A DNA stretch of 36,711 nt from Candidatus Hydrothermarchaeota archaeon (GTDB lineage Archaea > Hydrothermarchaeota > Hydrothermarchaeia > Hydrothermarchaeales > BMS3B), in contig WANW01000094.1 in assembly GCA_015521615.1 (NCBI GenBank), forward strand, positions 1 to 36,711, in the 5' to 3' direction. The position numbers were made by a program, and so were the translations under genes. This document shows positions 25,606 to 28,426 of the stretch, piece by piece (position 1 is the first letter of the stretch; each line of letters begins with the position of its first letter). The notes under the pieces were generated by a model. It had not been told where the DNA came from. It did no database searches and saw only the letters and a program-made list of their open reading frames with translations.

Positions 25606-25619
25606 GTTTATATTATATG
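25606..25619. promoter_or_regulatory. AT-rich promoter element between divergent genes
   Basis: GTTTATATTATATG (about 25606-25619) reads as a TATA element for the FrhB-like gene, whose ATG at 25659 has AGGTGGT at 25649-25655. Its complement could serve the minus-strand gene if that begins at 25560. Confidence 0.4.
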
Positions 25620-25658
25620 ATAAATCATGATAATTTACCTCAGTGAGCAGGTGGTATC

Positions 25659-27122
25659 ATGTTGCTCAAGGACTTTCTAAGGCCGAGCCTTGAGGCTCTC
25701 ATCGAGGAGAGCAATGTTGTTAAGGAGGATAAGCCCCTCAAGAGCCTTGCGTACGTGGGCATGCCCTGCCAGATTCAGGCGGTAAGGAAGGCCCAGTTTT
25801 TTGAGGCCAAGTCCAGGCAGGAGTGGCCCCGCAGGATAAAGGTTACTCTCGGGCTCTTCTGTGCTGAGAGCTTTCCCTACCGCGAGCTGGTCAAGCTCGT
25901 GGAGAGCAAGGGAATGAGCATGGCGAAGATCAAGAAGTGGGACATAAAGGGCAAGCTTTTGGGCTACCACGATGGCGGAGTGCTCAAGATCCCCCTGAAG
26001 GAGGCGAAGAAGTATGCGCGGGAGAACTGCCACTACTGCCTCGACTACACCGCAGAGCTTGCGGACATAAGCGTAGGTGCAGTTGGCTCCCCCAGAGGGT
26101 GGAACACCGTCATCACCAGGACGCCGATGGGTCTGGCGATAGTTGAGGGAGCAATACGCGAGGGCTACCTCGAAACGCAGGAGGTCAATGAGGGCGAGGG
26201 CGGCCTTGCCCTGCTGAGGAAGCTCTCAAAGCGGAAGTTTAAGGGCGCCTGGAAGAACAAGGCCAAGAAGGAGGAGAAGGGCGCAAAGGTGATGCACTTA
26301 GACACGACCCATGAGCACGATATGGAGAAGCTGCTCTCACATATGACGGTGGAGCACCGCATAGACGAGCTCCTCCGCGATGTGGTCGAACCAGGGCTGT
26401 GCGTGACCTGCGGCGCCTGTGAGGCAAGCTGTGCGGAGAAGATTATCAAGATAGACGAGGATGGCATGCCCCAGAAGCTTAAGGATTGCGAGTCCACCGA
26501 CTGCGGGCGGTGCTATGCTCTCTGCCCGCGCACCACCCTGCCCATAGATTTGATTGAGGAGCACCTCTTCGGGAGCAGGCGCTACCAGTTTGAGAAGCGC
26601 ATCCTGGGGCAGTACATAGCAATATTCACCTGCCGCGCGGCGAGCGGGAGTATAAGGAAGCGCGGTCAGGACGGCGGTGTGGCGACAGCTCTTCTCAAGT
26701 ACATGCTGGACCACGGCATTGTGGATGCCGCAATAAGCGTTACTCAGGGTGAGAAGCCCTGGTATCCGGTTAACTACGTCTCCACCACCAGCGAGGACCT
26801 GTTCAGGAGCGCCGGCACGATATACAGCACCGCTCCAACGATAGTGGCAGCGAAGAGGGCACTGACACAGCACGAGGAGTTCTCGAAGTACTACAGCTTC
26901 CTGGTGGCGAAGGGTTTCCTGCCAGAGCTGCAGATCGCCATGGAGGAGGCGGCGAAGGCAAAGAAGGGCGAGGAAGTGGTTGAGATAGACGAGGAGGAGC
27001 TCAGGCGCAGGAAGGCGAAGATAGAGGCGGTGCTGCAGCGCATCTCCAAGCCGGCGGTAAAGATGATGATAGAGCAGGGCAAGTATGAAAAGGCAATAGA
27101 GATGCTGGTGAAGGAGAAGTGA
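25659..27122 (+). CDS. FrhB/FpoF-type F420 oxidoreductase with swapped domain order
   Basis: A 487-residue iron-sulfur flavoprotein of the coenzyme F420 hydrogenase/dehydrogenase beta family. Residues 28-158 match what is normally the C-terminal part: YVGMPCQIQAVRK (C37), GLFCAESFPYREL, CHYCLDYTAELADISVG and GSPRGWNTVITRT. After a charged linker, residues 244-365 match what is normally the N-terminal part: a cluster motif C248/C251/C254/C258, then C282/C285/C289, then GQDGGVATALLKYMLDHGIVDAAI; YSTAPTIVAAKRAL follows later. A helical tail of about 100 residues closes it. It should bind FAD, F420H2 and one or two [4Fe-4S] clusters. mtd follows directly, so the two likely share F420H2. Confidence 0.85.
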   Translation: MLLKDFLRPSLEALIEESNVVKEDKPLKSLAYVGMPCQIQAVRKAQFFEAKSRQEWPRRIKVTLGLFCAESFPYRELVKLVESKGMSMAKIKKWDIKGKLLGYHDGGVLKIPLKEAKKYARENCHYCLDYTAELADISVGAVGSPRGWNTVITRTPMGLAIVEGAIREGYLETQEVNEGEGGLALLRKLSKRKFKGAWKNKAKKEEKGAKVMHLDTTHEHDMEKLLSHMTVEHRIDELLRDVVEPGLCVTCGACEASCAEKIIKIDEDGMPQKLKDCESTDCGRCYALCPRTTLPIDLIEEHLFGSRRYQFEKRILGQYIAIFTCRAASGSIRKRGQDGGVATALLKYMLDHGIVDAAISVTQGEKPWYPVNYVSTTSEDLFRSAGTIYSTAPTIVAAKRALTQHEEFSKYYSFLVAKGFLPELQIAMEEAAKAKKGEEVVEIDEEELRRRKAKIEAVLQRISKPAVKMMIEQGKYEKAIEMLVKEK

Positions 27123-27124
27123 GT

Positions 27125-27940
27125 ATGAGGATAGGGGTGCTCAAAACAGGAAACATCGCAACCTCGCTGGTGCTGGAGCTTCTGCTGGATGAGCGTGCCG
27201 ACCGCGAGGACATAAGCGTTGAGGTGTTCTCCACGGGCGCGAAGATGCAGCCGAAAGATGCGGAGGAGCTGCTCTCCCGTGTTGACCTGAGCGAATACGA
27301 CTTAATCCTATACACCACACCCAACCCCAGCGCAAAGGGGCCGAGGAAGGTTATAGAGGCGCTCAAGGGCAGACGTGCCGTAGTGATAGGCGATTCCCCC
27401 GGGGTCAAGATGAAGGACGAGCTAGAGGAGCTGGGCCTGGGGTACATTTTTGTGCTTGCAGATTCAATGATAGGCGCCAGGCGGGAGTTTCTTGACCCCA
27501 CGGAGATGGTGCTCTTCAACGCCGACATGCTGAAGGTGCTCGCCGCCACGGGTGCGCTTCGCCTGGTGCAGGATGAGATTGACCTCGCCATAGAGGCTGC
27601 TAGGAAGGGCGAGGACTACCTGCCCCGCGTTGTGGTGAACGGCGCGAAGGCAACCGCAAGGGGCAGGTTCGCGAACCCCTACGCGCGAGCTAAGGCGCGC
27701 GCCGCCTACGAGGCCGCTTGCTTGGTGGGCGAGCTGAACGTCAAGGGATGCTTTATGGTGAAGGAGGCGGAGAAGTACATACCCCTCGTCGCGAGCGCCC
27801 ACGAGCTTTTGAGAAGCGCCGCTAAGCTCTGCGACGAGGCCAGGGAGCTGGAGAAGGGCGGGGACAGCGTGGCGAGAACGCCCCACGCGAGGAGCGGAGA
27901 AGTGCTGAGCAAGCGCAAGCTTCTGGAGAAGCCGGAGTAG
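27125..27940 (+). CDS. mtd: F420-dependent methylenetetrahydromethanopterin dehydrogenase
   Basis: A 271-residue Mtd of normal length. It starts MRIGVLKTGNIATSLVLELLLDERADR and shows YTTPNPSAKGPRKV, VIGDSPGVKMKDELEE, YIFVLADSMIGARREFLDPTEM and PYARAKARAAYEAA. It transfers hydride between methylene-H4MPT and F420, an inner step of methanogenesis or its reverse. The ATG at 27125 is preferred because GGAG lies eight bases upstream; a GTG at 27119 overlaps the previous stop. The six-base offset means translation is coupled to the FrhB-like gene. Confidence 0.96.
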   Translation: MRIGVLKTGNIATSLVLELLLDERADREDISVEVFSTGAKMQPKDAEELLSRVDLSEYDLILYTTPNPSAKGPRKVIEALKGRRAVVIGDSPGVKMKDELEELGLGYIFVLADSMIGARREFLDPTEMVLFNADMLKVLAATGALRLVQDEIDLAIEAARKGEDYLPRVVVNGAKATARGRFANPYARAKARAAYEAACLVGELNVKGCFMVKEAEKYIPLVASAHELLRSAAKLCDEARELEKGGDSVARTPHARSGEVLSKRKLLEKPE

Positions 27941-27952
27941 CAGGGAAAAGAG

Positions 27953-28231
27953 ATGAGTGCAGTAGTTGAAATAAGCAAAAAGCTCGGTATTCCGGAAAAA
28001 GAGCTTGTTTTGAAGGGTATTATATCCTTTATCTAGAAGGAGATTAGGCTGTCTGAAGAAGAGATAGCCGATCTAAGGGAAAAGTATGATGTCGCAACAA
28101 AGGAGGAGCTCTATGAAAAGATTAAATCAAAAGATGTAGAAAGCCATCCCGCCTGGGAAGATTATATAACTTGGAAAAATAAGGAAAAATACATCGAAGA
28201 ACTTAAAGACTATCTTAAAAACCTCGGGTGA
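27953..28231 (+). pseudogene. antitoxin-like gene interrupted by an in-frame TAG
   Basis: The ATG at 27953 gives 27 residues and then TAG at 28034-28036. The same frame resumes at once with a helical, Glu/Lys-rich stretch that contains HPAWEDYITWKN and ends at TGA 28229-28231. The whole would be about 92 residues and looks like the antitoxin partner of DUF6516/TumE-type toxins. The next frame, three bases on, is a TumE remnant. The two genes are AT-rich unlike their neighbours. TAG is used as an ordinary stop by neighbouring genes, so readthrough is not expected. Confidence 0.6.
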
Positions 28232-28234
28232 TTC

Positions 28235-28426
28235 ATGTCTCTGCTCGAAATTTATCTAAAGCTCAAACGCATCGCTGAAAGAGATTATTCATATCACTGG
28301 GAGAGTACATTGCAGACGGGGATGATTCATCGCTGGGATAATGCCCCTGATCATCCTGAGATTGCCACATTTCCAAAACATTTTCATGAAGGTGCACAAC
28401 AAAGGGTGAGAAGCGCGGCTAATTAA
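28235..28426 (+). pseudogene. internally deleted TumE-like (DUF6516) toxin remnant
   Basis: A 63-residue frame. It joins an N-terminal LLEIYLKLKRIAERD helix directly to the C-terminal part YSYHWES...IHRWDNAPDHPEIATFPKHFHEG, which is the signature of the TumE/DUF6516 family. The beta-rich middle of a normal toxin of about 110 residues, and its tail, are missing. Its end overlaps the stop of the minus-strand DUF61 gene. Together with the interrupted antitoxin upstream it represents a dead toxin-antitoxin locus. Confidence 0.65.

Follow-up and report, generated by a model that had tools for sequence, protein, structure and literature searches.

The gene directly upstream of mtd in the 36,711-nucleotide stretch of Candidatus Hydrothermarchaeota DNA analysed here (the window) raises the question of whether it encodes an FrhB-family protein with its two halves exchanged, and, if so, which enzyme such a protein would serve. 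FrhB-type modules let archaeal ferredoxin enzymes use F420, and structures of FrhB-type coupling to CODH and Fwd were not available before 2024. The permuted branch described below lies beside pyruvate oxidoreductase, Nap, glutamate synthase and Mtd, and thereby widens the range of enzymes that are probably linked to F420; in the lineages concerned, annotations as "FrhB" have been taken as hydrogenase.

Domain order and cofactor motifs

The gene (25659..27122, + strand, as are all features whose coordinates are written in this form) is an ORF of 487 residues. A preliminary description had placed the C-terminal half of FrhB ahead of the ferredoxin cysteines and the N-terminal half, the reverse of the usual superfamily order (N before C), and searches with Pfam and phmmer bore this out. 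FrhB_FdhB_C (PF04432, E 2e-44, 151.4 bits against a cut-off of 23.3) matched residues 28–178, and FrhB_FdhB_N (PF04422, E 5e-23, 81.4 bits against a cut-off of 22) matched residues 323–395, behind the Fer4 region. Alignment to the solved FrhB proteins 6qgr_B and 3zfs_C set the C-terminal half at residues 28–209 (25740..26285) and the N-terminal half, aligned to FrhB residues 2–92, at residues 312–402 (26592..26864); between them lie a junction linker, in which the original C-terminus meets the original N-terminus (residues 210–241, 26286..26381), and a 2x[4Fe-4S] ferredoxin domain (residues 242–292, 26382..26534). This last domain was recognized by Fer4_9 with a score slightly under the Pfam cut-off (E 2e-5) and by its eight aligned cysteines (C248, C251, C254, C258, C277, C282, C285 and C289). 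With phmmer, 3zfs_C split in the swapped order, its residues 2–92 matching query residues 315–405 and its residues 95–277 matching query residues 28–209; for 6qgr_B each swapped segment had its own E-value (2e-16 and 8e-40), and as these are independent a chance match is excluded.

The motifs named in the preliminary description were found where it had put them. The [4Fe-4S] ligands of FrhB are Cys104, 134, 192 and 195 (PMC3591093), and all four are kept, as C37, C68, C124 and C127; the QDGG motif of the FrhB FAD site, whose FAD loops are residues 23–30 and 71–77 (PMC3930138), is kept as Q337–G340. The KGK loop is at residues 97–99 and a GTIYST loop at residues 386–391, in which Ile388 takes the place of the lysine of GTKYT in FrhB. 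An AlphaFold2 model built with only six close homologues as input had a pLDDT of 41. Judged by its sequence, the gene is a genuine FrhB-family enzyme with its two halves swapped.

The swapped order as such is already known: the legend to Fig. 9 of a 2013 eLife paper (PMC3591093) records, for a subunit of the F420-dependent glutamate synthase of M. marburgensis, that the N-terminal 182 residues align with the FrhB C-terminus and the C-terminal 83 residues with the FrhB N-terminus. The same glutamate synthase is described in two further papers, in passages that do not remark on the order (PMC3448663, PMC3087415). FrhB paralogs beside PFOR and CODH are on record for ANME-1 (PMC9012536), and an F420-reducing hydrogenase beta subunit was noted earlier in the MAGs considered here (PMC6775978), which probably corresponds to these permuted or FrhB-type proteins. 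We found no paper in the open-access literature that followed up the permuted branch or its link to por or mtd; what is new here is the conserved mtd pairing and the shared C-terminal tail, both described below.

Among known systems the closest likeness is to the F420-interacting subunit of FGltS, a putative F420-dependent glutamate synthase (M. marburgensis GS, ADL58239), whose architecture the window protein shares: C half, ferredoxin domain and N half in a single chain. The partner in the window, however, is mtd, with no adjacent glutamate synthase genes, and the FGltS type lacks the tail and forms a separate clade (100/100). The zeta subunit of ethanotroph CODH (8RIU) and FwdI (8RJA), which the window protein matches in sequence, likewise combine a 2x[4Fe-4S] domain with an F420-reductase domain and couple a ferredoxin-type enzyme to F420 (PMC11493965), but in the canonical order Fd-N-C. 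FpoF and FqoF have the same modules, again in the canonical order and with a membrane complex as partner; the window protein scored 135–137 bits against cut-offs of 444–475, missing that of the NCBIfam FpoF model (135.4 against 475 bits). FrhB of F420-reducing hydrogenase has the fold family, ligands and FAD motif in common with the window protein, but has no ferredoxin domain of its own, keeps the canonical order and has FrhA and FrhG as its partners.

Spread and origin of the permuted order

The preliminary description had allowed that the window might join two partial genes by misassembly, and the window genome is indeed a draft (100 contigs, 94% complete). The same order is nevertheless seen in at least eight related MAGs; full-length orthologues with the same order and junction occur in Hydrothermarchaeota MAGs at 63–97% identity, and the order recurs in single-contig genomes of another phylum. 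This recurrence in independent assemblies rules out misassembly, and we regard an artefact as having a negligible probability. The same result removes the singularity that the preliminary description had attached to the gene, as its closest relatives have the same order, one of the two findings that the description itself had named as refuting.

Among the loci fetched, 60 proteins (that of the window and 59 others) had the order C-N and 53 the order N-C, with no intermediates. Apart from the full-length orthologues, the swapped order is found in shorter proteins (about 345–390 aa, the tail absent). These are spread across the whole class and also occur in G044, the one genome of its phylum, in one of 57 genomes of the order of G028 (the other relatives inspected in the phylum of G028 being canonical) and nearly throughout the phylum of G023, where over 120 of 150 genomes have them; this phylum is taken to be Methanobacteriales-like from synteny and the literature. 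In this last set the permuted gene adjoins glutamate synthase, with a subset having no such neighbour in the fetched stretch. Apparent permuted matches in the phylum of G031 were rejected, as they came from reading through a stop, which joined a pair of neighbouring canonical genes. Taken on these sequences, the permuted form is a widespread subfamily found over several archaeal phyla.

In the window genome itself the FrhB C domain occurs in five proteins: three are permuted (on contigs C94, that of the window, C23 and C89) and two canonical (C27 and C44). Permuted copies in Hydrothermarchaeota adjoin porGDAB, Nap or mtd. We counted 12 por-linked loci; nine mtd-linked loci (seven genomes of the window's family together with G014 and G019); and four Nap-type loci, all in the window's genus, with NapA-like, NapG, NapH and NapD genes followed by the permuted gene. 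In one por-linked locus (G044:C104; L034:1477-3108, L058:5036-6667) the permuted F420 reductase and PorB are fused into a single frame within porG-porD-porA, which suggests an F420-linked pyruvate oxidoreductase. At the Nap-type loci (L043, L047, L143, L144) the permuted gene lies between the Nap cluster and a predicted c-type cytochrome, an arrangement that suggests F420H2-fed reduction of nitrate or a similar compound; their NapA-like protein scores under the NapA cut-off.

How the order arose was also addressed in the preliminary description, which had proposed a tandem duplication followed by trimming. The junction supports such an origin: it keeps the canonical C-terminal helix and, behind it, the N-terminal stretch that canonical proteins have ahead of the ferredoxin cysteines (97.5% and 95.5% in hhalign), and the survival of both canonical termini is the remnant expected of a tandem Fd-N-C fusion that was then trimmed. 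As a side observation, large genomes of another phylum carry paired adjacent canonical F420-reductase genes near long HdrA-like proteins (L140:5628-8261, L142:5591-8221), a tandem layout of the sort from which a permuted gene could arise. In an IQ-TREE tree, for which both halves of all proteins were set in the same order, the permuted proteins of Hydrothermarchaeota and G028 cluster together (94/89), and those of the glutamate-synthase type form the separate clade mentioned above. A single origin of the permutation was not rejected (AU p 0.187 with all proteins, 0.52 without that of G044); one origin is thus compatible with these sequences, not proven by them.

Pairing with mtd and the C-terminal tail

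The downstream gene (27119..27940) encodes the F420-dependent methylene-H4MPT dehydrogenase Mtd (PF01993, E 3e-113), and its product passes the curated model for the F420-dependent enzyme (NF002162, 378 bits against a cut-off of 297). Its GTG start at 27119 overlaps the end of the permuted gene (stop codon 27120–27122) by 4 nt; an alternative ATG start lies at 27125, where the MTD profile begins. Within the limits that contig ends set on these locus contexts, mtd is kept as the neighbour in all seven testable genomes of the window's family, and the pairing also occurs in G014 and G019, of another family, whose permuted proteins are without the tail. The spacing to mtd, from a 4-nt overlap to 7 nt, is conserved across 63–97% protein identity. 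The coupling to mtd claimed in the preliminary description is therefore real, a two-gene unit conserved in relatives, and the same order beside mtd, which it had advised looking for, was found both in the family and in the two genomes elsewhere. For the mtd genes of the remaining families of the class we found no link to a permuted gene. The gene context makes the further proposal of a dedicated Mtd-F420H2 module plausible.

Upstream of the gene, the promoter-like element and GGTGGT site of the preliminary description are present and conserved. The TATA-like element (TTTATATTA, 25607..25615) is found in all six aligned relatives, the most distant having one gap after TTTATATTA, and directly behind it a 17-nt block (ATGATAAATCATGATAA, 25617..25633) is identical in all six although the flanks diverge, which makes it a possible operator or start region; the ribosome-binding-site-like GGTGGT (25650..25655) is kept in five of the six. 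Behind mtd, two small genes that are intact in JdFR-16 (L048:10547-11213) appear degraded in the window (27974–28423), the first having an in-frame stop and the second looking truncated.

Residues 405–487 of the window protein had no Pfam match, and its last part (residues 439–487, 26973..27119) proved in profile comparisons to be a tail of about 45–48 residues in which the fwd-operon ferredoxin and KorB likewise end. Searching relatives with the tail gave matches to the fwd-operon ferredoxin (best E 4e-7) and to KorB of G021 (E 2e-5), and when all 23 genomes of the class were searched with a profile of it, at least 26 hits were better than 1e-7; the hits that could be assigned were mtd-linked permuted FrhB proteins, fwd ferredoxins or KorB. 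In the tail proteins that were extracted the match lay at most eight residues from the C-terminus. Independently built C-terminal profiles of the three families matched one another in hhalign at 97.2%, 96.4% and 94.2%, that of the permuted FrhB tail matching fwd ferredoxin at 97.2% and KorB at 96.4%, against at most 1.1% in 18 of 18 control comparisons with the C-termini of PorB, FwdD, Mtd and KorA. Among permuted branches the tail is limited to the mtd-linked branch of the window's family.

Two other tail matches were rejected. One, to an HflX-like GTPase (G011:C121, E 4e-4), was judged to be chance because it lies at residues 30–61; chance matches near 4e-4 thus do occur, and a lone hit around 1e-4 is no proof. 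Each KorB match in the window's genus is therefore weak when taken by itself, and the case for KorB is carried by the orthologues and the profile comparison. The other, to an engineered repeat protein in the PDB (E 8e-7), was the sum of weak repeats, none significant alone; the PDB search gave no convincing match to the tail. With neither a Pfam nor a PDB counterpart, a portable docking tail is plausible. The fwd-operon ferredoxins themselves (about 220–250 aa; L180:1609-2286 on G000:C38, L181:2277-2954, L184:1177-1830) have a winged-helix-like segment (HTH_24, E 7e-6) between the Fer4 motifs and the tail, which is odd for a ferredoxin.

Likely function and its alternatives

The reading that best joins these results, to which we give a probability of roughly 0.6, is that the gene product is a soluble F420:ferredoxin oxidoreductase belonging to the permuted FrhB subfamily, of fusion origin and equipped with a docking tail, that would serve the F420H2 pool of Mtd. 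The cofactor set of FrhB is complete in the sequence (one [4Fe-4S] cluster, the FAD site and the F420 channel loop), with the 2x[4Fe-4S] domain in addition. Hydride would be exchanged between F420(H2) and FAD, and single electrons would pass along three clusters, that of FrhB and the two of the ferredoxin domain, to ferredoxin or a ferredoxin-type subunit; the F420H2 would be used or made by Mtd. The tail may dock the protein to a partner common to the ferredoxin of formylmethanofuran dehydrogenase and the 2-oxoacid oxidoreductase subunit KorB, and the permutation would have arisen earlier than the pairing with mtd, when tandem copies of a canonical Fd-N-C protein were fused end to end and then trimmed. 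This reading is favoured by the permuted paralogs that adjoin ferredoxin-dependent enzymes, among them the por operons at 12 loci, and has structural precedent in the FrhB-type subunits that couple CODH and Fwd to F420 (PMC11493965). A search for [NiFe] large subunits in the window's genus found no FrhA; the sole clear large subunit is HysA/NiFeSe-like (75 bits against a cut-off of 392.5 for the frhA model TIGR03295), so F420 is probably reduced by modules of the present kind. Against the reading stands the loss of the GTKYT lysine at Ile388. Mtd itself lacks FeS clusters and gives its hydride straight to F420, so that the two genes may be paired for nothing more than co-expression.

The alternatives differ in the weight they give to mtd. 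That the protein is a general F420:ferredoxin equilibrating enzyme, beside mtd merely because both handle F420, is less probable but still a substantial contender: its F420 and ferredoxin modules are complete and the neighbours of its permuted paralogs vary (por, Nap, glutamate synthase), yet mtd is kept in every testable genome of the family, and the tail is found only in that branch. At the other extreme, the protein would bind Mtd physically and hand over F420H2 directly in a substrate-channelling complex. The tight spacing kept over 63–97% identity and the presence of the pairing in two branches of the tree agree with such a complex, which we still think rather unlikely, as the Mtd of other class members is unlinked to such a gene and the two mtd-linked sets, though apart on the best tree, could be joined in one clade without rejection (AU p 0.10), so the pairing may have arisen once only.

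In a further alternative the true partner of the protein would be formylmethanofuran dehydrogenase or 2-oxoacid oxidoreductase, recruited by way of the tail, with mtd incidental. The tail held in common with fwd ferredoxin and KorB and the precedent of FwdI, an FrhB-type subunit on Fwd (8RJA, PMC11493965), speak for such a partner; the gene, however, lies outside the fwd and kor operons and the tail might instead attach to some third protein shared by all of them, and we hold this alternative to be improbable. We also speculate, as a tentative reading that we doubt more than we believe, that a lineage-specific docking tail gathers the fwd ferredoxin, KorB and the mtd-paired permuted F420 reductase, proteins linked to ferredoxin but not otherwise related, on one partner. 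If so, the ferredoxin- and F420-dependent Wood-Ljungdahl steps would be wired into one electron-transfer hub. The common tail offers a testable handle on how these steps may be arranged physically.

Some further loci are of note in their own right. In the window genome, the permuted paralog beside por (G000:C23; L042, 7959-9122) has lost several ferredoxin cysteines (CISCGTCVAVA...MPNAYLACPR), so that probably just one of its two clusters is left. On G012:C9 (L053:7958-9085) a divergent member of the permuted subfamily has glycosyltransferase-like and radical-SAM-like neighbours and no adjacent redox partner. Behind mtd in G006 (L049:10278-11033) comes a protein that combines 4Fe-4S motifs with an FeS domain and a stretch resembling CdhD (PF03599, E 5e-10). 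The window genome also has a canonical F420-reductase module directly upstream of cdhA (G000:C27; L044:5202-8699), an arrangement that resembles the F420-coupled CODH of ethanotrophs.
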